From a virus, in the IMG/VR virus record IMGVR_UViG_3300032240_001273, positions 1-28,658 of that record: a DNA stretch of 28,658 bases; one strand, 5' to 3'. This document shows positions 4,302 through 28,658 of this stretch, piece by piece. Numbering within the stretch: the stretch's first letter is position 1; each line of letters opens with the position of its first letter. The position numbers and the translations under genes are program-made. Below the pieces are notes generated by a model, which saw only the letters and a list, made by a program, of their open reading frames with translations, was not told where the DNA came from and ran no database searches.

Positions 4302-4555
4302 TCTCACGCCCACAGACAAGAATAAGGGAGCTGCTAAGGGAATACCCTGACGGCCTTACGGTGTTGGAAGTAACACGGCAGCTTTGCCTTAACTACACCA
4401 ACACAAAAAACTATTTGACCAATATGCCCGATGTTTACATTGACCGCTGGGTGCCTAGGACAGATTCCATCAAAGGCATTGGTAAGTGGCGGGCGGTTTA
4501 CTGCGCTATAGTGCCCCCAGAAAACTGCCCCCACCCTGACGGAGCTGATGAATGA
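4298..4555 (+). CDS. Small helix-turn-helix phage protein
   Basis: I start this at ATG 4298 (overlapping the previous TGA), giving 85 residues; an in-frame ATG at 4226 lies inside the previous gene. The sequence reads as a winged HTH. A first helix (TRIRELLREYPDG) leads to LTVLEVTRQL, a recognition-like helix (NYTNTKNYLTNMP) and a wing ending WRAVYCAIVPPENCP. The YPDGLT...MPD.YIDRW layout is one I associate with small phage DNA-binding proteins. It directly precedes and overlaps the glycosyltransferase gene, so it may regulate this operon (inference). Confidence 0.66.
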   Translation: MISRPQTRIRELLREYPDGLTVLEVTRQLCLNYTNTKNYLTNMPDVYIDRWVPRTDSIKGIGKWRAVYCAIVPPENCPHPDGADE

Positions 4556-5679
4556 CTGCGCGGTACGTTACCTTTAGTCCGTACTACGCGGGGCTGGGCA
4601 ATGTACTGATGAGCTACGAGTTGGCGTTGAGCATAGCGCACATCACTGGCAGGACGCTGGTGCTGCCGCCCAAGGCGTTCATGGCGTTTCTATCTACAGA
4701 GAACCACAGGGATAAGTTCATTGATATGTGGGACGTTCTCTACAAGCCAGCGGTGGCCGAGGCGTTTTCTGTTATTGACTTTGACGATGTGCCTGAGCTG
4801 CGCGCAGCCAAGGAGAAGATGCAAACGGAACGGTCATACACAGGCAACATCCTTGAGCACGTGCCAAATTTATTTTGGTACAAACCGAGGGAAGGCAACG
4901 TAGTGTGCGAAGAGCACGCGTTGCTGGTAAACGGCAGGCCCGATACAGAGGACTACAGAGTGTTTGCAGCAGACAGAATACCGGTTGACTTGGATCGGCC
5001 TGAAAAGTTTCTGCACTTTGAAAACAATTTGTTTGGGCATTATTTCTACCACGTCTACTGCGATAAGGAGCAGCGCAACATCCTCAAGGACAAGATGGCC
5101 AACGCCATGCGTTACAAGGAGATGTACTTCTACATGGCCAAAGAGGTCGCAAAGAAGTTGGGCAGCTACAACGCAGCGCACGTACGGCGTGGGGATTTTT
5201 TCCATCAATACAGCGAGTTCCTCAAGGGTATCGACACCGGGGATAAGCTGCTCAATCAAGTTAAGAAGTTCGAGGAGTACAACGGCCTGCCGCTGTACAT
5301 CGCCACAGACGAGACCAACCGCGATTTGTTTGATGCGTTCAAGGGCCAGTACGAACTGGCTTTCTATGATGACTTTGGTTTTGATTTCACGCCCTTGGAG
5401 AAGGCGATAGTCGAGCAGATCATCTGTAGCAACGCTAAGTTTTTCATGGGCACAAAGCCGTCGACGTACTCAGCAAAGATCAACAAGATCAGAGGCGAAG
5501 CTGGCAGACAGGCAGATGATTACATGGGCATCAACACAGTGCTTTACACAGAAGGCGGCTGGAAAGAAATGCCCAAGGACAGACCCGCTTATATAGACAG
5601 CCCCATGCCTTGGACACTGCGAGCGGATAAGCGCTGGTCTTGGGATAACTCAACACACCCACATTGGACAAAGGAGTAG
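4552..5679 (+). CDS. O-fucosyltransferase-like (GT-B) glycosyltransferase
   Basis: This 375-residue protein has the layout of the protein O-fucosyltransferase / alpha-1,2- and alpha-1,6-fucosyltransferase superfamily. The N-terminal loop AGLGNVLMSYELALS (13-27) precedes a first Rossmann-type strand (TLVLPP). HVRRGD (210-215) matches the H-x-R-x-G-D sugar-nucleotide motif, and YIATDE (249-254) and EQIICSNAKFFMGTKPST (288-305) are the later GDP-sugar-binding blocks. Known family members transfer fucose from GDP-fucose to protein or glycan hydroxyls; donor and acceptor here cannot be read from sequence. There is no signal peptide or membrane segment, so it should be cytoplasmic. The oxygenase gene follows 2 bases after its stop, with its ribosome binding site inside this gene's end. 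That arrangement suggests co-production and a shared substrate. Confidence 0.78.
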   Translation: MTARYVTFSPYYAGLGNVLMSYELALSIAHITGRTLVLPPKAFMAFLSTENHRDKFIDMWDVLYKPAVAEAFSVIDFDDVPELRAAKEKMQTERSYTGNILEHVPNLFWYKPREGNVVCEEHALLVNGRPDTEDYRVFAADRIPVDLDRPEKFLHFENNLFGHYFYHVYCDKEQRNILKDKMANAMRYKEMYFYMAKEVAKKLGSYNAAHVRRGDFFHQYSEFLKGIDTGDKLLNQVKKFEEYNGLPLYIATDETNRDLFDAFKGQYELAFYDDFGFDFTPLEKAIVEQIICSNAKFFMGTKPSTYSAKINKIRGEAGRQADDYMGINTVLYTEGGWKEMPKDRPAYIDSPMPWTLRADKRWSWDNSTHPHWTKE

Positions 5680-5681
5680 AA

Positions 5682-6692
5682 ATGTTTGCACTTAATTTAG
5701 AACCACGCTGGATAGAATGGTATTTGGAAAACCTTGCTATGGGCGTAGACCCCAAAGCGATTGTGACCGCCATGCTGGCAGCAGATGTGCCCGAGTCAGA
5801 AGTAATAACTTTGGCCAGTAACATAAACCGAGTGTCGGGATACCGCACAGCGCTAAAGCTGGGAGATCAGATACGCAAGCTGGAGTCGGTAAATTTAAAC
5901 CACCAAAAGCTGCTTGCCCAAGACCCCACGCGCCTGACGATTGATAGAGTATCAGGGCTGACCAAGGAGAGCTTCTTCCATGATTACTGGATAGCAAACA
6001 AGCCGGTCATCATCACGGACTTTCTTGATCGGTGCGATAACTACGATCGCTGGACTATGGACTACTTGCTGCACAACTACGGCGACGAAGTCGTGGAAAT
6101 ACAAGAAGGCCGGATGGCTGACCCCGAGTATGAAATCAACAGCACCAAGCTGAAGTCAACCATATCCATGTCCAAGTTTATTAAACGCATACTGGACACT
6201 GGGGATACCAACGACTTCTACATGACGGCCAACAACTTCTCTATAAGAAACACGCGCTTAGGGGATGTGCTAAAGACGTTGGAAAACATACCTGACTACT
6301 GCACACCACCAACAGCTGACTCACACACCGCGCATCTGTGGGTTGGGCCAAAGGGTACGCTGACGCCGCTGCACCACGACGAGTCGGGAATCATTCACCC
6401 AAACCTGCACGGATCTAAACGATGGATAATGATAAGCCCCAACTACTGCACGTATCTGTACAACCACGTAGGCGTTTTCTCAGAGGTAAATATTTTTGAT
6501 GTTGACTACAACAAGTTTCCCAAGATGCGTGACGTGCATGTCATGGACGTTGTGGTAAACGAAGGTGAAGCAATTTTTATACCAATAAACTGGTGGCACG
6601 CAGTGCAGTCTTTGACGCCGTGCGTATCGCTGACGCTGACAGGATTTCCGTTCGATAATAGGTGGAGCTTTTATAAACCCGTACGGAGATAA
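5682..6692 (+). CDS. JmjC/cupin_8 Fe(II)/2-oxoglutarate-dependent oxygenase
   Basis: The start is ATG 5682, preceded by AAGGAG (5671-5676) 5 bases upstream; an in-frame TTG at 5664 is less likely. The 336-residue product has a helical N-terminal region, then a double-stranded beta-helix. Its iron triad is visible as H231-x-D233 (TPLHHDES) and H306 (NWWHAV). K246 (GSKRW) is at the usual 2-oxoglutarate position, and the HLW.GP and GEAIFIPINWWH motifs are typical of FIH/JMJD5-like cupin_8 proteins. These enzymes hydroxylate side chains (Asn, Asp, Arg, His) or tRNA bases; the target here is unknown. Because it is paired with a glycosyltransferase, it may create the hydroxyl that is glycosylated, or modify a separate host factor (inference). 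Confidence 0.82.
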   Translation: MFALNLEPRWIEWYLENLAMGVDPKAIVTAMLAADVPESEVITLASNINRVSGYRTALKLGDQIRKLESVNLNHQKLLAQDPTRLTIDRVSGLTKESFFHDYWIANKPVIITDFLDRCDNYDRWTMDYLLHNYGDEVVEIQEGRMADPEYEINSTKLKSTISMSKFIKRILDTGDTNDFYMTANNFSIRNTRLGDVLKTLENIPDYCTPPTADSHTAHLWVGPKGTLTPLHHDESGIIHPNLHGSKRWIMISPNYCTYLYNHVGVFSEVNIFDVDYNKFPKMRDVHVMDVVVNEGEAIFIPINWWHAVQSLTPCVSLTLTGFPFDNRWSFYKPVRR

Positions 6693-17307: not shown

Positions 17308-17470
17308 GCGTGGGCAGGGGTTCTTTGTCCCCTGCTTAGACCCCGAGTCCGTCAGGACGGAGGGGCTTAAAAAAGCTACGCTCTTGAGGCTGTTTGATGC
17401 CCGGGCGCAGCCGGGTATTTATAAAGGGCAGGCCGGTGTGTGGTTTTACCGCCTGCCCATGAAGCCCTAA
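17267..17470 (+). CDS. Small protein overlapping primase-helicase end
   Basis: A 67-residue protein in a different frame from the primase-helicase, starting at ATG 17267. Residues ERGQGFFVPCLDPES, LLRLFDARAQ and VWFYRLP give a compact alpha/beta chain with a Cys and several aromatics; I associate this pattern with small phage proteins of unknown function. It is the last rightward gene, and its stop overlaps the stop of the leftward giant gene by 4 bases (17467-17470). Three GC-rich stem-loops lie inside its coding sequence. Confidence 0.62.
   Translation: MSRLKITYPWAKVERGQGFFVPCLDPESVRTEGLKKATLLRLFDARAQPGIYKGQAGVWFYRLPMKP
17314..17335 (+). other. GC-rich stem-loop near end of rightward transcription
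   Basis: GCAGGGG (17314-17320) pairs with CCCCTGC (17329-17335) around an 8-base loop; no T-tract follows. Weaker hairpins lie downstream, including one with stem CCCGG/CCGGG at 17400-17415 followed by an AT-rich stretch. All lie within the 17267 coding frame. They may slow or stop RNA polymerase before it meets opposing transcription, but none is a classical terminator. Confidence 0.35.
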
Positions 17471-20400
17471 CGCTGCATCATTTGCTGCATCTTCTCGGCG
17501 TACTCTGTACGCTTGGCCCGCAGTTCTTCCAGCCGTGTACGTTTTTGCTCTGGTGTCAGGTTGGGATCAACGGTGACCGCCTGCATCTGAGTTTGGTAGT
17601 TACGCATCACAGTGTTGAAACTGCCTGCTGAAGCGCCGCGAGCAAAAGCCTCGGCGTTCTTATCCAAAAATGCTTTGGCTTCGTCGGGCTTGTTCTTCTT
17701 AAGCAGATCGGCAACCGTAGCCCGGACTTGCTCAGCCTCAGTCATGGTCTGGTATGCTTCCTCGACAATGTTGCCAGCGTCTTTGGGTTGGAACAGCGTG
17801 CCTACGATAGGTTCCCGCGACAAGTTCTTCTCCGGCTCATTGGGGTTTTGCGGCCCAAATACCAGCGAGCTTGCCATCTGCGCAACTGCCAGCCCCATCG
17901 ACCCAGTGTATCCGCTTATCAGGTGGTCAATTTTGACTGGGGATATATTGAGCGCGGAGCCCAGCTCAGCAGCAAAGCCAGACGTGCTGTCCCGCACCCG
18001 CATACCGGGCGTCAAGGATTGCTCGTGTTTGCTCTCAATGTCACGGCCTGTGTAGAACGACTTGCCCAACCCCACCTCGATGGCAGGCTTGAGGATCTGC
18101 GGCACGTAATCGGTGTCACCGCCGGGAAGAAGTTTTTGCGCCATCATGCGTATTGCCGTGGCGGCTTCTTTGTCGTGGCCGTAGATGTAGTTCATCACCG
18201 CTTCTGGCAAAGACTTGAATACGATGCCTGCTTCAAATGGAATTGGCACCCGCACCATCTCGTCCACGCCGGGGAACGGCACAAAGAAGTTGTTGTACTT
18301 CTGCTCTGGCAGCGCGTTCTTGTACGTCTCGTCGTCCTGCATCATGGCGGCGTATACCATAGAAGCCCCAGCCAGCATCATCCCGCGCTGAATGATTTTC
18401 TGTTTGATCTGCAACTTCTCTTCCATCGGCATGTTGCCACGCAGCGCCTTGACCAAAGTATTGATGCCTTGGATTTGGGAGTTCATGAACGGATTGATGG
18501 CGTTCAGTACGTGCAAGCTAGGCGATATTCCGCGCCGCGTAAAGTTCATGGACTCCAGCGCCATGTAGCTGGCTTCCATTTCGGATAGCCCCTGCTTGAG
18601 GTAGCTTTCGTAACGAATCTGACGAGTCATAGCGTCGGCTTTGCCGTGCAGCTCGTAGCCCTTGGCCAGCAACTTTTCCCAGTTTGGGCCGCCAGCTTGA
18701 ACTTTCTTTAGGATGTTGGTCAGGTCATCAGGCAGGCCGGTGTAGACCTCGCCGCCGGACAAACCACGGCGCTCCATCAAATCAGACTTGACGTTTTTAA
18801 TTGCGTCTGCCATGCCTTTGAAATCCGAGCCAGCAACCATTGCCGATGAGATCGTGTCCTTAAACAAGATGCGCCCGGCAGACACGGGGTTGGCAACAAA
18901 CATGGTACGGATTAACCGGCTGGGAGCGCCCACAAGGCGCATCAAAGCGCTGGGTTGGATAGGCATACCTTCCATGCCTTTGACCAAAAGTTCCGCAGGA
19001 ACTTCGTCAGTGTCTTTGACTATGGCGTAGTGGTCTTCGCCGTCTACCTTGAAGTTAAGGACGTTGCCGCGAGCGGTAGTCTTGCCTTTGCGCACATCGG
19101 CCAACCCAATTTTTTGCAACTCAAACGCCGTGTTCTTAATCGCTTGGTTGTTCAAGCCCATCTCAAGAATCATATTGGCGTTACGCACTGAGCTGGTAGC
19201 AAAATCCACGACGCGGGAATCATCCCCAACAAGCTCATGCAGATACGGTTTGTCTTTGACGTTGCCCACCTTGGTTATGGACTCATTGCCCATCATCAGC
19301 GACACGCTGCCGTCAGAGTTCTCGCGGTAGTAAGGAACGTAGTCCTTGTTGGCCATCATCTTTGCGCCAAGCTCTTTGGAGAACTGCCCGGTGCTTACGC
19401 CAAACTTAATCATGTCTTGGTTAAAGCGGCGGTATTCTTCCTTGGCATTTTTAAAGATGTTCTCCAACCCCGGCACAGATGCAATCTGGCGGATGGCTGA
19501 ATCAAGTTGGGCCTGTGTTATTTTGCCGCTGTAGTCTAGCTTTTCGAGACCGACTTCCTTGGCGCGCTGCGCAACTTCGTACAGGGAGAACAAGTTGTTT
19601 GTAGCTTCTGGGCTACCTGTCAGTTTGTTGGCAGGCTCCAGCGTCTTGGCCACATTGACCAGCGAGTTGTTCTTGTCTTTGGTTTCGTACAGGTACTCGG
19701 TGCGGCCGTCCGGGCGGGTAATCTTGCGCAGCTCAGGAACGCCCCGGCCAACAACTTGGCCCAAAAGGTTTGTGCGTTGTTGAGCCATACGCAGGTAGTA
19801 CATCATTTGTGTACCAGCAAGCTGATCCATTTTCTTGGCAAGCCGTGCTATAGGCGCAAACTGGTCGACCAGCTTGACTTCAAGTTCCAATGCTTTGCGG
19901 CCCAGAGCGCTGGCGGTCATGCTCTCGTGCAGTGGGCGGTTGGTAGCAATAACTTTCTCTGCCAAGTCGCCTGCTTCTTTCAGCCTAGGGTCATACTTGG
20001 CGGTGCGGTATGCAGCTTTGCCAGCGGGGGCTTCACCTTTGCCACGCTCGGTTCCCTCGATAACATACTGGCGGGCATCAGCAACGATCTGGCGCACGGC
20101 CTCGTCGCTTAAAGTTTGGCCTTTGAATGTCTTCTTGAACCATTCCTTGATATCGTCGATGATCTTGCGCACAGCGCCGCGCTCTTCGGGGGACGGCTTG
20201 GGGTTCTCGGCCATCTCTGCCAGCACTTCTTCAACAGCGACTTCTTTGCTTAGCTTAGGGCCTTCACCTGCGTCACTTGCCTTGAGCTTCTCGTCGGCGC
20301 GCTGGCGCACCTCGTTGTTGCCGTCGTACAGCTCGTTCATCTTGCTGGTGTAGCTCTCGCCAAGTACTTCGCGCAGGCCGTGGTGGCCGGTTGCCTCGTG

Positions 20401-23400
20401 TGCTATTGTGGCAATGACATCCTCAGCGGTGTGCATCTTGTCGCCAACAAGGTAGACTGTCTTGGTGTTCGGGTCGTACACACCGGGGATTTTGCCCTCA
20501 ACGCCGTCGGCCTTGGCCTGCTCTTTGATGTGGTCAGGCAGCTCGTCAAACGTGTCGACCAGCTTTATCTCGGGGGCATTGACCCAGTCTTTTGTGATGC
20601 GATCAATAAACCGCTGAATCTCGCCCCGACGCATGGCCGGGCCTTCGCTCTCGCTGGTTCTGTAGACTGACGGCCCGCCTTCTTTTTCGGATGCGATACC
20701 TTCTTCAAAGTCACGGTAGAGTTGTTTGCCAAGTTCCCGTGGAGCGCGCCGTATAGTGCGCGTTTCTTGCGTTGTGCGCTTGCTCTTAACCTCCTGCTTG
20801 CCAGCGCTGGCAAGGGACTCACGCATATCTTCAAGCCGTTGCTTTAGCGTCTCTTTGTACTCGGGGGTAGAGCGGCCCAGTTTCTTTGCCGTTTCACCTA
20901 GTTGCTTGGTGGCTTCCTGTTTGTACTCTGCAACGGCCTTATCGTCTGGGCCGTACTTGTCCCGCAACGCCTTGAGGCGTTTCTGTACTTCTGCAAGCTG
21001 GGGTTTAAAGTCAGGGTGTTCTTGGCCGAGCAGCACCGATAGGTCACGGAAGTCTTTGGACTTCTCCACCTCGTACCGAATATCACCGGCGTTAATCCGC
21101 GCTGCGCGCTTGGCTTCGGGGGACGGGCCTTTTTCTCCGGCCTCACGGGCCAGTCGATCGCTTTCGGCTTTCTTTTCGGCCCGCAAGGTTTCGGCGGACT
21201 TAGCAGGCTCAATCGTGCGAAACCGCTTGTGCAGGTCAATTACCTTTTGTTTGGCAGGCTCAACCCGAGTCTCGACAAGACGAGCGTATTCTTTGGCCAG
21301 TGTGCCCATGCGGCGCTGCGCGTAGGCCTTATCTTTGGCGCTGGTAGTGGGGCTGTCAATTTTTTCTTGCAGCTTGCCGTGTTCGTCAGCCAGTTCGTAA
21401 AGCCGGTCAAGTACCGAAATGCGGGCATTACCTTGCGGTTTCTCAATCTTGTCTCTTTCGGTTTGAATTTTTTCAAGCAGGCGGTTGTAATCATCCCCCG
21501 CCATTTCGGTGCGCTTAACTTTGGTGCCCTCAAGATTAAGCCGATCGTCCAAAGATTTAATGAGCTTGTCATTGTCAGCTTTCTCTTGGTCACGCGTTTT
21601 GTTGCGCTCTTGCAGTTTCTTCTGCTCGTAGGCTTGCGTCATCCGCTTGATGGTGGGCTCGTCTTTGTTTTGCAGCGCAGTGTTCAGGATGTTGTACTCG
21701 CCAAACAGTTCTTGCTGCACCGGGCCTTTTTCTTCTTTGGCTGGTGCTGGCACTTCGGCTGGCGTTTCTTCTTTGGCGACTTTGGCCTCTTTTGGTGCAG
21801 GCGCTTCTTTCTCGGTAAACATACCGATGGTTTCGCCCTTGGACGTAACTTTGCCTCGGAGCGCATTTACGCGTTGCGTGTAGTCCTGTATCTGTTGCGA
21901 CCGTTGGGCTTGAAGTTCGTCCAGTGTAGTAGCGTGCTGGCTAGCTGCGTCAAAGTCTTCGCCTTGTGTGGCGTCAAGCATCTTCTTCTTGGTAGAGTCG
22001 ATCTTGCTGTCGAGCGCCGACAGGTTGGCTTGGTGCTGGGTCTCCAGCCCCTCGGGTGTTTGGGTCGTGCCGCCAAGACTTTCAATCTGCTGGGATGACT
22101 GTTCCATCCTCCCTTGGAGGTCTTTGATCTGCGCGCTAAGGTCGCGCACCGCGCCAGTATCCTGCTTCTGCGCTGCGTCAGCCGCTTGGGCTTTAAGCGT
22201 ATCGAGCTGCTTGGTGAGCAGGTCATGCTGCTCCATCAACTTGTACAAGTCGGGTTTGGTCGCTTCCGGTACGGTTGGCGCGGCTGGTGCTTCTGCTGCC
22301 GGGGCCTCGGGGGTTTTGGGCAGGAACTGCTCGCTGCGCAGCGCGTCAGCGGCTGCAGTTTTGAGTGTCTTGTATTGCTCTTTGAGCTGGGCCACCACGG
22401 CAGCGTTGCGCTGCTTGTCAATTTCGGTCTGCGGTTTGGGTATGAGCTGCGACTTGAGATCGTCGTATTTCTGCTGCTCAGCTTGATAAGTAGCCTGCGC
22501 CTGCTGGGCGTATTCGGGGCTTTGTGTGCGTTGCTGTTCTGCTGCCGCAGCCTGCGCTTCGGCTTTGGCTTGGTCGGCTTCTGCTTGGGCACGCACGTCA
22601 GCGTTGCGGATTCCTTCGGCGGTGTTTAACTCGCCTACTGCGCCGCGTCGTGCCCCAATGCCGTGCGCCAGCCCAAATATGGGGGCCATGCCCAACGCAC
22701 CCTTTGTGGACTCAAGGTATTGCTGCATGGCCTCGGGAGAGGTCAAGTCCTGCCCCAGCGCTGCCCGAGACACAGCCTCGTTGCCCACCATCATGCCTGT
22801 GCCGATGAGTGCATTTTCTGCCGTGCTGTGGGCAATGTTTGTCAGCGTACCCGACACTTGTTTGGCGGCGGCTTCGGCGGTCAGTTCTCCGGCGGCTACT
22901 TTTGGCGCAAGGGCTGCGGCCTGTTCGGCGGCTGTTTTACCCAGCAAGCCTTTAATTGGCCCGGCCATAGCCACACCCGAGAATGCGTTGATGACTGCAT
23001 TGGTGATACCACCGGCGATATCAGCCATGTGGTCTGGGGGTTGTCCTGCTGCTTTGCGGCGTTTGGCCAGCTCGCCTATATCTGCGGAAACATCTGCACC
23101 AACAAAAGCCGCGCCAGCGGCTACGGCCCCAGCTTCGGGGGCAATAAAAGGAACAGCCGCAGCAGCGGCCATTGGCGTAACAAACCGCCCGCCCATAGCA
23201 CCAATGTCTTGTGCAAGCGGCTCGATTGCTTTGGATGCGTATGCACCAAGTTCTGGGAAAAGACCGCGCTGGCTTGCGGCTTCAATGTCTGCTTCGGTTG
23301 TTGGGCGGTAGCCTTGCTGAGCCTTTTGCTGCTGGCGCTGGCCGAACTTGGTCAACCCCTCTAGGCCCAACTCTGTCCCAGTGTCCTCGGCAAACTGCCC

Positions 23401-23580
23401 AATACCGCCCCTGAACCCAGAACCCAACGCGGACAAAATGCCGGTAGTGGGTTTGGGCTGCGCTCCAGCGCTAGCTATTTGACTTTGAACAGCCGCGTAG
23501 GCCTGTTCGTCTGTAAGTTCTACGGGCGAGTCAACACGATAAGTTCCTGATCCGGGGACATTTATTTCGTATTGGGGCAT
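17467..23580 (-). CDS. Giant internal virion / polyvalent protein (LPD38-like C-terminus)
   Basis: A 2037-residue protein, ATG at 23580 behind GAGGTGGG. The N-terminal 30 residues (YEINVPGSGTYRVDSP) resemble a small beta module, followed by Ala/Gly-rich hydrophobic segments (about 130-175) that could insert in membranes. Coiled coils lie near 313-427 and 727-830. A zinc-peptidase-like HEATGHHGLRE starts at H1061. It has one residue more than HExxH, as I recall for phage polyvalent proteins. The last third (about 1560-1850; TRQIRYESYL, NAINPFMNSQIQG) reads like the large polyvalent-associated domain LPD38. Position and size fit a T7 gp16-like ejected protein that enters the host with DNA. It follows the transglycosylase gene in a leftward operon. 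Confidence 0.75.
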   Translation of the reverse strand: MPQYEINVPGSGTYRVDSPVELTDEQAYAAVQSQIASAGAQPKPTTGILSALGSGFRGGIGQFAEDTGTELGLEGLTKFGQRQQQKAQQGYRPTTEADIEAASQRGLFPELGAYASKAIEPLAQDIGAMGGRFVTPMAAAAAVPFIAPEAGAVAAGAAFVGADVSADIGELAKRRKAAGQPPDHMADIAGGITNAVINAFSGVAMAGPIKGLLGKTAAEQAAALAPKVAAGELTAEAAAKQVSGTLTNIAHSTAENALIGTGMMVGNEAVSRAALGQDLTSPEAMQQYLESTKGALGMAPIFGLAHGIGARRGAVGELNTAEGIRNADVRAQAEADQAKAEAQAAAAEQQRTQSPEYAQQAQATYQAEQQKYDDLKSQLIPKPQTEIDKQRNAAVVAQLKEQYKTLKTAAADALRSEQFLPKTPEAPAAEAPAAPTVPEATKPDLYKLMEQHDLLTKQLDTLKAQAADAAQKQDTGAVRDLSAQIKDLQGRMEQSSQQIESLGGTTQTPEGLETQHQANLSALDSKIDSTKKKMLDATQGEDFDAASQHATTLDELQAQRSQQIQDYTQRVNALRGKVTSKGETIGMFTEKEAPAPKEAKVAKEETPAEVPAPAKEEKGPVQQELFGEYNILNTALQNKDEPTIKRMTQAYEQKKLQERNKTRDQEKADNDKLIKSLDDRLNLEGTKVKRTEMAGDDYNRLLEKIQTERDKIEKPQGNARISVLDRLYELADEHGKLQEKIDSPTTSAKDKAYAQRRMGTLAKEYARLVETRVEPAKQKVIDLHKRFRTIEPAKSAETLRAEKKAESDRLAREAGEKGPSPEAKRAARINAGDIRYEVEKSKDFRDLSVLLGQEHPDFKPQLAEVQKRLKALRDKYGPDDKAVAEYKQEATKQLGETAKKLGRSTPEYKETLKQRLEDMRESLASAGKQEVKSKRTTQETRTIRRAPRELGKQLYRDFEEGIASEKEGGPSVYRTSESEGPAMRRGEIQRFIDRITKDWVNAPEIKLVDTFDELPDHIKEQAKADGVEGKIPGVYDPNTKTVYLVGDKMHTAEDVIATIAHEATGHHGLREVLGESYTSKMNELYDGNNEVRQRADEKLKASDAGEGPKLSKEVAVEEVLAEMAENPKPSPEERGAVRKIIDDIKEWFKKTFKGQTLSDEAVRQIVADARQYVIEGTERGKGEAPAGKAAYRTAKYDPRLKEAGDLAEKVIATNRPLHESMTASALGRKALELEVKLVDQFAPIARLAKKMDQLAGTQMMYYLRMAQQRTNLLGQVVGRGVPELRKITRPDGRTEYLYETKDKNNSLVNVAKTLEPANKLTGSPEATNNLFSLYEVAQRAKEVGLEKLDYSGKITQAQLDSAIRQIASVPGLENIFKNAKEEYRRFNQDMIKFGVSTGQFSKELGAKMMANKDYVPYYRENSDGSVSLMMGNESITKVGNVKDKPYLHELVGDDSRVVDFATSSVRNANMILEMGLNNQAIKNTAFELQKIGLADVRKGKTTARGNVLNFKVDGEDHYAIVKDTDEVPAELLVKGMEGMPIQPSALMRLVGAPSRLIRTMFVANPVSAGRILFKDTISSAMVAGSDFKGMADAIKNVKSDLMERRGLSGGEVYTGLPDDLTNILKKVQAGGPNWEKLLAKGYELHGKADAMTRQIRYESYLKQGLSEMEASYMALESMNFTRRGISPSLHVLNAINPFMNSQIQGINTLVKALRGNMPMEEKLQIKQKIIQRGMMLAGASMVYAAMMQDDETYKNALPEQKYNNFFVPFPGVDEMVRVPIPFEAGIVFKSLPEAVMNYIYGHDKEAATAIRMMAQKLLPGGDTDYVPQILKPAIEVGLGKSFYTGRDIESKHEQSLTPGMRVRDSTSGFAAELGSALNISPVKIDHLISGYTGSMGLAVAQMASSLVFGPQNPNEPEKNLSREPIVGTLFQPKDAGNIVEEAYQTMTEAEQVRATVADLLKKNKPDEAKAFLDKNAEAFARGASAGSFNTVMRNYQTQMQAVTVDPNLTPEQKRTRLEELRAKRTEYAEKMQQMMQR

Positions 23581-23601: not shown

Positions 23602-25416
23602 TTACGACCCGATTTTATTTACGGTTACCCCCGCAGGTAGCGGAACAGTTCCGGTGGGTGCAGCAGCCGCCATTGTACTTGTGCCAGCCATGCTTGTCAT
23701 CTGTTGCAACAATCGCGCTGCGTTGGCTTGATGAATAGCAATTTGTGGGTCAAGCGGGTTTGTTTTTGCCAACAACGCGGCGGCAGCTTGCTCGCCTTTG
23801 GCCTGTGCTTGCAGCACATTGAACTGTTGTTTTTGCGCCGCAGGTACGCGGTTTGCAAGTTCAGCGGCGCGGGCATCAAACAACGCCGCGCGTTCAGGCG
23901 CAATGTCGGCCATCGCGTTTGCTTGGCGTGCCGTAGCATTAAGGTGGGAAATTTCTGCCGCTTGTTTCTGGCGTTGGTTGCGCAGTTGAGCCATTGAGAT
24001 ACCGGCTTCGCCCAAGTTTTGCAACGCGTACTGCGACTTACCGGCCAGCAACGCCATGCCCATATTGAACATATCCTCGTTGCTCATGTGGAAACCGCCT
24101 TCTTCTTTTTTGGTTTCCGGGGTAGTCAGAGCAGCAATGCCAGATGCGGGGCCTGCTTCTGGGTTTTCATTTTCATAGTCTGCACTGGCGCTGGTATCAA
24201 ATGCCCCCAACGCGTCCTCTGCGGGTTTTGGTTTGTACGAGGCAAATCCTGCGGAGGGGTTTATGTTTTCCCAATCCGCGCCAGCGCCAGTATCGTAGTC
24301 GCCAACTTGTGCGGCTTGGCTGGCAGCAGCACGTTGTTGCGTAACTGCTTGGGCCAACTCAGGAGAAATACCCGCTTCACCGGCATAACCTGCCGTTGTT
24401 GGATTTAGAAGATCCGCGATACCTTTACCCGCGTTGCTAAAGGCGGTGCCGACTGTGCTGGCCGCATTACCAAATTCTTTGCCCACCGCGCTTGTTGGGG
24501 GAATTTCAGCGGGGGCTGCCGCAGGTTGCGCAGGCGCAGCGGAGGGGAGTTCGGCTGCTTGGGCGTTTGAGCCGGGCATGACGGCGGTCAACAGCTTGCT
24601 GAACTTTTTCAAATAACCTTGGGCTTCGCTTGGCAGCGCGCTGGGGTTGATTTGCCCGTTGTTATCGCGCAAGTGTTTGTTGAGGACGGACTCGCCTTGG
24701 TTGTAAGCCACCGCCATCTTGGCGCTGTCGCCGCCATACTTTTTCTGCAAGTCGGACATGTACGCAATCGAAGCGTCAATGTTTTTGTATGGGTCGGTAC
24801 GTTCGTTGGGGTCAACGCCGTAGGCTTGTCCTGTCGCTTTTGTCAGTTGGCCAATGCCCACAGGGCCGGTCTTGGACTTTGCGTTGGGGTTGTAGCCAGA
24901 CTCAATGCGGAAAATACTGTCGGCCAAGTAAGGGCTCAAACCCATCTGGCGTGCTTTGGCAATCGCATACTGGCGGTACGCGTCAATAGCATCGCCCTCA
25001 CCACGCCCAGCACCGCCTCCAGCATAGCCAGCAATACCGCCTTCAGCCATGCTTTGCAGATTCTGTGCGGGGAGCGAGGGTAATCCTTGGCCTTGCGGGG
25101 CTTGGGGAATTGGGGCAGCCTGCGGGCCGGGCGCTGCTCCGCCTTGCGGCATCTGTTGGGGCATGCCTTGCGGCATCTGCGGGGGCATAACCGGCTGCGC
25201 CATTTTGGCAATATCTTGTTCAGCCACAGTTGGGGGCTGCTGCCCTGCCATTTTTGCCATTGCTGCTGTGCGCAGTTGCTGGCGGCCGTTGCTCTCTTGG
25301 ATTGCCAACGACAGAATGTACGGGTCGTTTTTGTGTATTGCAGCATACTGCTGCAGTTGCTGGTCGGGCATGCCGCGCAGCGTAGTCGTGATTTGGTTTA
25401 CATTTGGGATTGGCAT
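23602..25416 (-). CDS. Virion-associated lytic transglycosylase (SLT domain)
   Basis: This 604-residue protein has a Pro/Gln/Met-rich N-terminal linker (about 60-120), a Gly-rich MAEGGIAGYAGGG stretch (about 123-135) and then an SLT-type transglycosylase domain (about 140-280). Catalytic E172 is in FRIESGYN, GIGQL is at 187-191 and AYNQGE at 237-242. The family cleaves peptidoglycan beta-1,4 bonds; on a phage particle this makes a hole for DNA passage. The C-terminal half is Ala/Gln-rich and helical (about 430-590). Its place between the Gln-rich protein and the giant protein matches the T7 ejected-protein cluster, where the transglycosylase is part of gp16 and not a separate protein. Confidence 0.83.
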   Translation of the reverse strand: MPIPNVNQITTTLRGMPDQQLQQYAAIHKNDPYILSLAIQESNGRQQLRTAAMAKMAGQQPPTVAEQDIAKMAQPVMPPQMPQGMPQQMPQGGAAPGPQAAPIPQAPQGQGLPSLPAQNLQSMAEGGIAGYAGGGAGRGEGDAIDAYRQYAIAKARQMGLSPYLADSIFRIESGYNPNAKSKTGPVGIGQLTKATGQAYGVDPNERTDPYKNIDASIAYMSDLQKKYGGDSAKMAVAYNQGESVLNKHLRDNNGQINPSALPSEAQGYLKKFSKLLTAVMPGSNAQAAELPSAAPAQPAAAPAEIPPTSAVGKEFGNAASTVGTAFSNAGKGIADLLNPTTAGYAGEAGISPELAQAVTQQRAAASQAAQVGDYDTGAGADWENINPSAGFASYKPKPAEDALGAFDTSASADYENENPEAGPASGIAALTTPETKKEEGGFHMSNEDMFNMGMALLAGKSQYALQNLGEAGISMAQLRNQRQKQAAEISHLNATARQANAMADIAPERAALFDARAAELANRVPAAQKQQFNVLQAQAKGEQAAAALLAKTNPLDPQIAIHQANAARLLQQMTSMAGTSTMAAAAPTGTVPLPAGVTVNKIGS

Positions 25417-25417
25417 A

Positions 25418-26710
25418 TTATTTCCCCATACGTGCGATGGCTAGCCCGGCCAGACCGTCGCTTTCTTTGACGTGCCCGCCCTTGGCAAACGGTTTGTAGC
25501 CCATAGACGCGGCAGTCATACCCAAACCACCAAGTTGCGACAAAGCGCTGGGGGGAGCGTTGTACGTTTGTTTTGATTCCTGAGCGATAGGCAAACCGCG
25601 AAGCAGGCTGGACATAAACCCAAGCTGCTGTTGCGGGTAGTTGGCCGCGTTGCGGAAATCAGTTATTTGCGAGTTCAGTACATTCTGAACATTTTGTTGC
25701 TGCTGGGTGCCCAGCGCATTCTGCAATTGGTTAATACCCATGTTTTGGGCGTACTGATTTTGACCCAAGCTACCCAGCGTGTTAGCGCCAGTCAGTGCCG
25801 TTTGGGCACCTTGCAGTCCGAGACCCGCGCCAAACTGTTGCTGTTGCGCATTGAGTTGAGCTGCCGCCTGACGTGCTTGTTGCTCGGTGTTGAACTGTTG
25901 CAACGCTTGGTTGTACGCTGCCTGCGATCCTGTGGCTTGGATGCCTGCTAGATTTTGTTGCAAGCCAGCATTGCCTTGAGCGCGCATCACTGCGTCCCGG
26001 CCTCCACCAAAAGCCCCTGCTTGGGTAGCCTGCGCCTGCTGTTGGGCACCGGCTTGTCCCGCCGCACGTCGTGCAGCCTGCGACTGAACGTCCACTACAT
26101 TTTGCATGTAAGGACTCATATATGCCGACACGTTGCTCTGGGGCTGGTAACCGCGTCCGGGCATATAACCGCCACCCATACCTTGGCCTTGCGGGGGCTG
26201 CATCTGCTGGGAGTTTTGATTTTGCATCCCGCCGGGCAAACCACCCAAACCGCCCATCATTCCTTGGCCACCACCCATACCATCAAAAAACCCACGCTGC
26301 CTACCGACTGGGCCAATAGCGCTTTGTGTACGGTAGGGGTCGTAGTTGTACTGTGCGGTCAGTGCGTTGTATGTGGCTTGGTTTGCGGCCCCAGTAGCAT
26401 TGCCTAACTGAGGGGCAGCTTGCATTTGCTCAGCGCCTTGGAACGCCTGCTGCTGCAATGGAGTAAATTGGGCAACTTGCTGGCCGGGGTATTGTTGGTA
26501 GCCTTGGAACCCGGTAATGGTAGGCATCCCTGTGGCATCAACGGCGGTATTACCGCTGGCGTCTTTTCCGTATTGGAACACCGTGCCAGCGCCAGCGCCC
26601 AACATTTGCTGCACATACGGCGCGGCATAGTCGGGGATCGTAGTTTGACTGCTGGATGTTGATGTGGGGATTGTTGCTCCGCCACCGCCGCTGCTGCCGC
26701 TACCGCTCAT
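25418..26710 (-). CDS. Gln/Gly/Ala-rich virion protein, T7 gp14-like position
   Basis: A 430-residue low-complexity protein: a Ser/Gly N-terminus (MSGSGSSGGGG), a Gly/Met/Gln-rich region around 145-195, a long Gln/Ala helical region (about 205-340) with short coiled-coil-like repeats, and a C-terminal AKGGHVKESDGLAGLA. It starts at 26710 overlapping the GNAT stop (ATGA) behind AGGTG and ends 1 base before the transglycosylase start. Gene order puts it where T7 encodes internal core protein gp14. No sequence match is claimed. Confidence 0.68.
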   Translation of the reverse strand: MSGSGSSGGGGATIPTSTSSSQTTIPDYAAPYVQQMLGAGAGTVFQYGKDASGNTAVDATGMPTITGFQGYQQYPGQQVAQFTPLQQQAFQGAEQMQAAPQLGNATGAANQATYNALTAQYNYDPYRTQSAIGPVGRQRGFFDGMGGGQGMMGGLGGLPGGMQNQNSQQMQPPQGQGMGGGYMPGRGYQPQSNVSAYMSPYMQNVVDVQSQAARRAAGQAGAQQQAQATQAGAFGGGRDAVMRAQGNAGLQQNLAGIQATGSQAAYNQALQQFNTEQQARQAAAQLNAQQQQFGAGLGLQGAQTALTGANTLGSLGQNQYAQNMGINQLQNALGTQQQQNVQNVLNSQITDFRNAANYPQQQLGFMSSLLRGLPIAQESKQTYNAPPSALSQLGGLGMTAASMGYKPFAKGGHVKESDGLAGLAIARMGK

Positions 26711-27111
26711 AATTTCACCTCAATAATTTGGTATTTGGGTTCAAACCCGTAGCGTTTCCACAAACGCGTAACTGACTCACGAGTTGCGCCTTCCATAACA
26801 GTAGCGCCCATACTTACTGCGTATGCCTTTAATTGGGCAAAAGTGTCGGGGTTTGAAATCAATTTGCCCCCAATTGCCGTAATAAAAGCTACACGGTCGT
26901 TTGCCCTATTAAAAAACTCCACGGTAACCGCGCCGTGAATTTTCTCATCTTCTGTCACAACTAGCAACGCCCACTGCCCTTGGGACACGTAAACCTTGAC
27001 CTGATCGACAGTGTAATCGCCCTTGGAGTACTCCAGCGCCGAAGCAACGTGGGGCTCTGCCGCGTCCCAGACACGGTGTACCCAAGCCAAATCGACGACC
27101 TCTAGTTTCAT
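26707..27111 (-). CDS. GNAT-fold protein, T7 gp13-like position
   Basis: A 134-residue protein with the GNAT pattern: strand-turn-strand WALLVVTEDEKIHGAVTVEF, then FITAIGGK in place of an acetyl-CoA loop, a helix (FAQLKAYAVSMGA) and a final ESVTRLWKRYGFEPK. The canonical Q/R-x2-G-x-G/A loop is not present, so catalysis is doubtful. T7 internal virion protein gp13 has a related GNAT-like fold as I recall it, and the size (about 138) and gene order agree. It overlaps the flanking genes by ATGA on both sides (27108-27111, 26707-26710). Confidence 0.75.
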   Translation of the reverse strand: MKLEVVDLAWVHRVWDAAEPHVASALEYSKGDYTVDQVKVYVSQGQWALLVVTEDEKIHGAVTVEFFNRANDRVAFITAIGGKLISNPDTFAQLKAYAVSMGATVMEGATRESVTRLWKRYGFEPKYQIIEVKL

Positions 27112-28658
27112 ATTGGCAGGTGTTTATCTGCGCGGCTGTTCACGGCTACGCTATTTTTGCCTGTGGTTTTGCCACGGGCCTGTTGAACACGATCCATCAT
27201 GGCGTACAGTTTACGCGCCCCAGCTTCGGTCGAGCCGTTGCCCAATTCAGACACTATACGGGCAGGAATTACAAACTCGCCGTCAGCCAAGCGTGCTGGC
27301 TGGTGCTGACCAATGGTAGCGGGGATGCTATCAGATACGCCATCACCGGGGCCACGCAATAACCGGCCACCATCAGAGTATGAACCTAGGTTATACATTC
27401 CGCCTTGGGCCATGCCGCCCATAGCCAACGCTGCCAATCCGCCTGTTGCATGGTGGGTTAAACCGCTATTATAAAAACTTAAGTTATTTGCATTCTTAAA
27501 GTTGGAAACATATCCACCGCCTTTACCACGATAGTTGGAATCGTAAGAGCTTTCTTGTCCCCAACCCCCACCAAAGTCATTGCCAGCATACTGAAGGGTT
27601 TGGTTGCCGCTATCCCACCCCGAAGTTTGTCCGGCATCAACAGGGTTTGTGTCAGCAGGTTGAGTTTGTATTTGAGTTTGCGTTTGATCGCCGCCGGAAG
27701 GAACCAAGGATTCAATGCCACTGGGAACTGGGGTTGCCGTATTGGTATTAAACAGTGTATTGTCATTTTCAGTGCGGTTTATGGCATCTGTTGTAAGGCT
27801 CTGTACTTCCGTATTAGCTGCATTCTGTTCTTTTGTTCTTTGCGCTGCCGCAGCATTCTCCATTGCAATAATTGCAGCATCATGGGCTGAAACTGGTTGG
27901 TCACTAACATTAAGCACCGTAGGGGGGAAAGCGCCTTCCTGCAGGCCTGATTCTGTATTTAGAACGGGGTTGCCGTTTGCGTCAAATACACCAGAGCTAA
28001 AACCGTATGGGGTGCCAACAGGAACTGCGGGGTTGTTGGAATCCCCGCCCGGTACAGGATTACCCCGAGTAATAATATTTGTAATTCCACCTGTTCCCGA
28101 CATAACTCGGTCGTGAGCAATTATGGCGTCCAAATCAGACTGAGAAAGCACGTTACTGCTGTCTGCTGAGGATACGGGCGTAACTGGTGTGGGACTTACT
28201 GGAGTCGGGGATACCGGAGTCGGGCTTACCGGAGTTGGGGATACAGGTGTTACCGGTACTTCTGTCAAGTACTTAGTCAGGTCATTAACGCCGTATCGCG
28301 CCGCACCTTGTCGAATTTGGTCATCAGTAAACCCTTGCGCTCTTGATGCGTCAATAGCATTTTGGATCTGCGCATCGGTATACGTTACCGCTGGATTGGT
28401 CGTAACCGTGGTATCTGGCGTAGGAGTTGTGGTTGTTGTTACCGTGTTGCCATCAGTCAAGTACTTGGTTATATCGTCAATGTTGGTCGGCGTGGGGATT
28501 CCGGGCACCGGAGTCGGGCTTACTGGCGTTGGGCTTACTGGCGTTGGGCTTACAGGCGTTGGGCTTACCGGAGTCGGGCTTACAGGCGTTGGGCTTACCG
28601 GAGTCGGGCTTACCGGAGTCGGGCTTACTGGCGTTGGGCTTACTGGCGTTGGGCTTAC
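27108..28658 (-). CDS. Repeat-rich virion protein, N-terminus outside window (partial)
   Basis: The frame stays open to the window end: upstream of a GTG at 28508 it continues as ten V-S-P-T-P units, so that GTG is not the start and at least 516 residues are encoded. After the repeats come a DDITKYLTDG module, a Thr-rich linker, a helical module (DAQIQNAIDASRAQGFTD), NDLTKYLT and a second block of four V-S-P-T-P units. The C-terminal part has Gly-rich MGGMAQGG and a conserved-looking GPGDGVSDSIP...ADGEFVIPARIVSELGNGS segment seen in phage tail proteins. It is upstream of the gp13-like gene, so it is probably a tail or ejected structural protein. Its stop overlaps the GNAT start. Confidence 0.7.
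   Translation of the reverse strand, partial: VSPTPVSPTPVSPTPVSPTPVSPTPVSPTPVSPTPVSPTPVSPTPVSPTPVPGIPTPTNIDDITKYLTDGNTVTTTTTPTPDTTVTTNPAVTYTDAQIQNAIDASRAQGFTDDQIRQGAARYGVNDLTKYLTEVPVTPVSPTPVSPTPVSPTPVSPTPVTPVSSADSSNVLSQSDLDAIIAHDRVMSGTGGITNIITRGNPVPGGDSNNPAVPVGTPYGFSSGVFDANGNPVLNTESGLQEGAFPPTVLNVSDQPVSAHDAAIIAMENAAAAQRTKEQNAANTEVQSLTTDAINRTENDNTLFNTNTATPVPSGIESLVPSGGDQTQTQIQTQPADTNPVDAGQTSGWDSGNQTLQYAGNDFGGGWGQESSYDSNYRGKGGGYVSNFKNANNLSFYNSGLTHHATGGLAALAMGGMAQGGMYNLGSYSDGGRLLRGPGDGVSDSIPATIGQHQPARLADGEFVIPARIVSELGNGSTEAGARKLYAMMDRVQQARGKTTGKNSVAVNSRADKHLPI
28185..28244 (-). repeat. Internal V-S-P-T-P tandem repeat block, four units
   Basis: Four 15-base units encode V-S-P-T-P in the virion protein (flanked by VPVTP and VTPVSS). 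Unit sequences differ by synonymous changes, so the block is older or more diverged than the one at the window end. The 15-base period keeps the frame on gain or loss of units. Confidence 0.85.
28509..28658 (-). repeat. V-S-P-T-P tandem repeat block, ten units, running off the window
   Basis: Ten exact 15-base units fill 28509-28658. Each ends in GGGCTTAC on the + strand and begins either [T/A]GGCGTT or CGGAGTC. From 28509 upward the order is B, A, A, A', B, A', B, B, A, A, where B is the CGGAGTC form, A the TGGCGTT form and A' the AGGCGTT form. All forms encode V-S-P-T-P. The window ends exactly at a unit boundary, so the true number of units is unknown. Confidence 0.93.

Follow-up and report, generated by a model that had tools for sequence, protein, structure and literature searches.

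The window, the whole stretch of DNA that was analysed, is the entire linear record of an IMG/VR virus (28,658 bases). Its outermost gene is read on the minus strand in a frame that remains open up to the contig end (Table 1). In the window and its relatives the gene order is endolysin (lysozyme), stabilization/hub-like protein, a 120 aa protein, the gene carrying the repeat array, a 134 aa protein, a 430 aa protein, an SLT protein and an LPD38 protein. The stabilization-type protein (694 aa) belongs to phrog_3287, virion structural protein, and has relatives in pelagiphages of the HTVC023P type, which are described as Podoviridae (PMC9599517). The array gene is located in the block of internal proteins, beside the SLT/transfer protein, as is characteristic of podovirus ejection proteins. 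A preliminary description of this DNA had treated the product as a virion protein, a view for which gene order is the only support. Elsewhere in the window (4552-6692, plus strand), a gene for an O-fucosyltransferase-like protein (PF10250, E 6e-16) adjoins one for a cupin-8/JmjC-type oxygenase (PF13621, E 1e-34), and the pair is possibly host- or surface-modifying. Close to the start of the contig, 110-1246 on the plus strand predicts an M28-family peptidase-like protein (PF04389, E 6e-7; phrog_4191).

Table 1. Features of the truncated array gene and of the virion genes that follow it in the window.
Feature	Position	Strand	Evidence and remarks
Main VSPTP array (ten units visible), interrupted at the contig end	28509..28658	-	Repeat and codon analysis
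GTG resembling a start, actually an in-frame valine codon (VSPTP|VPGIPTPTN)	28506..28508	-	Relatives read through
Inter-array segment (PGIPTPTNIDDITKYL...YTDAQIQNAIDASRAQGFTDDQIRQGAARYGVNDLTKYLTE...)	28247..28505	-	198-base core: identity 97.0% with L003, 87.9% with L002
Second VSPTP array of 4 units, more diverged than the main one: GTATCCCCAACTCCG GTAAGCCCGACTCCG GTATCCCCGACTCCA GTAAGTCCCACACCA	about 28187..28246	-	Includes type B
Variable segment	27423..28186	-	79.7% identical to L003, 381 gap columns including the second array; flanks 96-97%
Conserved C-terminal domain (GGMYNLGSYSDGGRLLRGPGDGVSDSIPATIG..PARLADGEFVIPARIVSELGNGSTEAGARKLYAMM)	27108..27422	-	66-sequence alignment; weak match to tape-measure families
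5'-truncated virion-operon protein gene, 516 aa visible	27108..28658	-	Open frame; full-length homologues L002, L003/L004 and L005
Following gene (134 aa), almost the same in L002; GNAT-like by eye	26707..27111	-	Without Pfam or PHROG match
Virion genes for a 430-aa protein without a match and a 604-aa protein carrying an SLT transglycosylase domain	23602..26710	-	Latter like T7 gp16-type internal virion proteins
2,037-aa LPD38-domain protein (polyvalent-protein type), last of the virion block	17467..23580	-	Domain match

The main array comprises ten 15-base units that continue the reading frame past the GTG, as the preliminary description had it, and every unit encodes Val-Ser-Pro-Thr-Pro (VSPTP). 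Three synonymous unit types, A (GTAAGCCCAACGCCA), A' (GTAAGCCCAACGCCT) and B (GTAAGCCCGACTCCG), are arranged on the minus strand, 5' to 3', as A A B B A' B A' A A B. Only columns 9, 12 and 15 of the unit vary, and all three are third codon positions. TRF scores for the repeat are 209 and 230, and the longest exact internal repeat in the visible array is 47 bases. Mean pairwise DNA identity between units is 0.881, compared with an expected 0.70 (maximum 0.79) when the same peptides are rewritten with the phage's own codon usage in 10,000 draws, which indicates duplication of DNA beyond mere repetition of a peptide. The units are thus copies of one another that have undergone synonymous drift. 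A 156-aa open frame on the plus strand across the array was not accepted as a gene; it is a by-product of the repeat, because the period of the array is divisible by three.

One scan of IMG/VR found 549 stretches related to the window, among which L002, L003/L004 (two records with an identical gene) and L005 are complete over the region matching the window gene. The complete proteins are 955 aa (L002), 1,038 aa (L003/L004) and 1,409 aa (L005) and begin MSLQVLANHMAAQGRGPDSTLVHMSPKEVQSLQ. The longest uninterrupted array consists of 13 units in L002, 25 in L003/L004 when VAPTP variants are taken as units, at least 23 in L091, the contig of which itself ends within the array, and at least 10 in the window; the counts elsewhere come from assemblies, in which arrays may be collapsed or expanded. 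The comparison of copy number among relatives proposed earlier therefore excludes a unit number fixed in all of them, and the array, being in frame, head to tail and variable in number between relatives, qualifies as an intragenic coding tandem repeat. Across the four genomes there are 34 distinct 15-base units in 92 occurrences (VAPTP and VTPTP variants included). All four contain the two commonest units, A' and A; B is present in the window and L003. Serine in the VSPTP units of these genomes is encoded by AGY as well as TCN codons. No single synonymous change leads from one kind to the other, and the peptide has therefore been arrived at, or retained, by more than one route. L091 was also considered as the missing half of the window gene, but its 34-base overlap with the window's array is uninformative because it is pure repeat.

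Identity between the window and L003 is 96% over the downstream genes, 97.0% over the inter-array segment and 96.2% over the C-terminal domain, flanking the variable segment listed in Table 1. Judged by these alignments, the window gene is a mosaic relative to L003. The order of the unit types had earlier been taken to suggest duplication and exchange. Order alone proves nothing, but the suggestion is made plausible by the presence of type B in the second array, by duplicated multi-unit blocks in the array of L091 and by the mosaicism relative to L003.

Relatives with 85-94% identity in their upstream DNA carry one of two spacers, a PVSPT type that lacks a Hint domain (L002, L003) or a PSVPS type that has one (L005, L099), and the spacer type switches right after the codons for AYNYLMGYGP. 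Up to about this motif L091 shares 93.4% identity with L005 and 93.9% with L003, and beyond it L091 is of the PVSPT type only. The switch is read here, from the aligned sequences, as a cassette swap. In homologues with the PSVPS spacer the Hint (intein-like) domain starts CPAPWIKITM, ends VLSHNI and precedes the C-terminal domain, lying at about 7570-7980 in L005, about 1220-1560 in L041 and near the 3' end of L099. Its match to PT-HINT (E about 2e-4) is below the Pfam cut-off, and ordinary splicing is not expected since an isoleucine follows the final asparagine of the domain.

The wider family has a consistent layout, consisting of an N-terminal motif, a glycine-rich hydrophobic stretch, a variable and often repeat-rich middle and a conserved C-terminal domain. 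The conserved N-terminal motif is GRGxDxxLVHMxPxEVxxLQ...GGSLTINPxTGLPEAG. An alignment of 61 N-terminal sequences has 17 invariant positions, and the C-terminal domain is nearly fixed in an alignment of 66. TRF detects a tandem array in 35 of 62 distinct full-length genes, and 96 of the 97 array periods in these genes are divisible by 3. Arrays cover the bases of the gene 5.4-fold more than flanking bases, and the gene carries an array at 33 of 56 loci, where neighbouring stretches of the same length give an expectation of 10.4. The repeat units are lineage-specific and include VSPTP, AAADK, AGVNA, APAP, GAGA, PVAPVT and GPTTP.

Searches for known counterparts gave few matches. The 516-aa protein and its full-length relatives match no Pfam or PHROG family at E 0.001, with the exception of PT-HINT in L005. 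The query has no blastn match among named phages, only two MAG contigs matched among bacterial genomes and gave no host, and PDB profile searches matched no solved structure to family members. A scan with the podovirus portal model PF12236 found no match, and its control was likewise silent, which makes the scan uninformative. AlphaFold models are poor, with a mean pLDDT of 54 for the N-terminal 260 aa (61 sequences) and 53 for the C-terminal 149 aa (66 sequences).

From the gene order and the motifs, the protein is predicted to belong to the interior of a short-tailed phage and to be ejection- or tape-measure-like, and the array is most likely an extended linker or spacer within it, a function deduced from the same features. 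The contig has probably been cut in the tandem-repeat spacer of a large internal virion protein of this kind, at a point where assembly was unable to continue, the array being a flexible spacer that changes in length. As an extended, proline-rich segment it would join the hydrophobic N-terminal part to the C-terminal part, lengthening and shortening via slippage or unequal recombination, while selection would preserve both the reading frame and the peptide (small residue-Pro-Thr-Pro). Hydrophobicity over 19 residues peaks inside the first 130 residues in 64 of 66 genes, although the median peak value is only 1.5 (Kyte-Doolittle), which is moderate. A resemblance to tape-measure families is seen in the C-terminal domain of 46 of the 66 members (phrog_3547; best E 4.5e-4, window's own E 0.013), and the domain includes SDxIPAxLxxGEFV, a motif that is often seen in tape measure proteins and is not strictly defining.

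A rather unlikely identity, which nevertheless keeps some weight, is that of a tail fibre, spike or needle with the proline-rich array as an external stalk. Neither end of the protein carries a receptor-binding or fibre domain detectable with Pfam or PHROG, the N-terminus has a glycine-rich hydrophobic stretch, ejection-type genes lie downstream, and the C-terminus resembles tape-measure families. These features have to be set against the occurrence of proline-rich PVTPT arrays in fibre-like proteins encoded on unrelated viral contigs and against the location of the array gene after the stabilization/hub-like gene, its neighbour being annotated as a needle head protein in Pag-Yong1. The needle gene of P22 lies near the corresponding place in the gene order.

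That the protein is the true tape measure, or length ruler, of a long tail is improbable. The C-terminal likeness to tape-measure families and the annotation of a homologue in phage DSL-LC04 would fit such a role, but among relatives with N-terminal regions 93-97% identical the length ranges from 955 to 1,409 aa, a swing that a ruler would not tolerate. The surrounding hub, SLT and ejection genes are moreover of the podovirus type, and in the Pfam and PHROG searches at E 0.001 no tape-measure family matched the whole protein.

Short-read assemblies are often interrupted by such repeats, which would account for a contig that stops within the array. IMG/VR contigs with V[STA]PTP arrays, defined by a degenerate pattern as having at least 4 consecutive units, number 16, and 6 of them end inside the array where 0.58 would be expected if contig ends were random (P about 4e-6), though the six breaks are not all independent because L086 and L088 are one phage with the same sequence. 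The longest exact internal repeat is 72-104 bases in five contig-end arrays and 38-62 bases in those that are spanned, with L090 (83) as the exception and the value for L085 measured on another, internal array. The difference indicates that synonymous variation between units probably helps assembly. The visible part of the window's array reaches only 47 bases by this measure, and its homogeneous or polymorphic part presumably lies beyond the contig end. The preliminary description had argued for an assembly break from the fact that the contig ends exactly at a unit boundary. The break itself is upheld by the excess of contig ends in arrays, but the boundary is a weak argument: a boundary end has a chance of roughly 1 in 15, and six other contigs broken in such arrays leave 4, 4, 6, 6, 7 and 14 bases outside whole units.

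Several other arrays were noticed among these contigs. L086 and L088 start with a different phage protein that has many YFAGG...ADKLTYSTDTT repeats and a PVTPT array at the contig end, with 22 units in L086 and 14 in L088. In L087, L090, L092 and L096, PVTPT/PVAPT linkers connect small cysteine-containing domains in fibre-like proteins, and the L092 protein recurs in L085, where the copy is broken at a linker of this type.

It is very unlikely that the array is itself an assembly artefact, either a chimera or a wrongly expanded repeat. The record is a metagenome assembly and its contig ends in a repeat, but the same unit types occur in relatives' arrays that are spanned, synonymous differences between units occur in linked blocks, and a second array with a shared unit sits inside unique sequence of the same contig.

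The preliminary description also held that the real start is not visible in the window, and the relatives agree: the gene start MSLQVLANHMAAQGRG is found in L002, L003/L004, L005, L091 and L099, and in the PVSPT-type genes of L002 and L003 the start ATG is preceded by AAGAGG (Shine-Dalgarno) and located 472-477 codons ahead of the main array. The upstream half of the window gene is outside the record and its start is placed from these relatives; beyond 28658 the array would continue, followed by a segment like AYNYLMGYGPSG..., with the ATG some 470 codons before the array. A complete gene starting at the GTG, a permitted start codon that would give an ORF of 466 aa with the array as untranslated upstream DNA, is scarcely credible, being refuted by the relatives save for a rearrangement unique to the window's phage: every close relative reads through in frame from a start 472-477 codons before the main array, all differences in the array are at third codon positions of the gene's frame, and the GTG is preceded only by the array, without a ribosome site, whereas the relatives' ATG has AAGAGG.

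The contig end is accordingly a limit of assembly and neither the end of the gene nor that of the genome, and the record lacks the 5' half of a major virion gene. Proline-rich arrays are recurrent break points in viral metagenomes, and the genes that carry them will therefore be systematically truncated and their length variation under-seen. Repeats of this sort are of an already known kind, and the repeat of a single contig is ordinary; the rebuilding of the spacer across the family is of more interest. Tentatively, since the family-wide picture rests on metagenome assemblies, this widespread family of internal proteins may hold both ends almost constant and go on remaking the middle, by lineage-specific repeats and by cassettes, some of them with a Hint-like domain, swapped at a fixed junction. 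The spacer would then be under selection and evolve fast as a component of DNA delivery. A family without a matching Pfam or PHROG model offers a useful case for the evolution of spacers in phage DNA-delivery proteins.

Little literature was found on proline-rich repeats in phage virion proteins. In a survey of phage low-complexity regions, proline ranks in the top three residues by enrichment and short repeats can form extended structures (PMC6821194). The longest phage case there is 115 aa, and the V[SA]PTP array of L003 reaches 125 aa within a longer proline-rich stretch; unlike the cases surveyed, the unit in the array protein is replaced among homologues. BACON-domain repeats of crAss-like phages (PMC6949934) are likewise tandem repeats in a phage protein, but the repeating element is a folded domain and not a unit of 5 residues. 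Tail length tape measure proteins (PHROGs 3547, 17300 and 6090) share the short C-terminal motif DxIPAxLxxGEFV with the array protein, but the match is weak (best E 4.5e-4), there is no whole-protein similarity, and the neighbours of the array gene are of the podovirus type. The closest counterpart is a 'tail tape measure protein' of DSL-LC04 [WJZ48115.1; OR003939], annotated by similarity only in a metagenome-assembled genome (PMC10611076). It shares the N-terminal motif GRGQDTMLAHITPQEA...GTVNPATG, with only about 40% identity over that motif, and the glycine-rich hydrophobic stretch. Its own mid-protein tandem repeat, GGPSYAGMDLSSAQGTL in about 5 copies, differs in unit from VSPTP, but the C-terminal SDSIPAMLSDGEFV domain is shared and the gene occupies the same place in a similar gene order.
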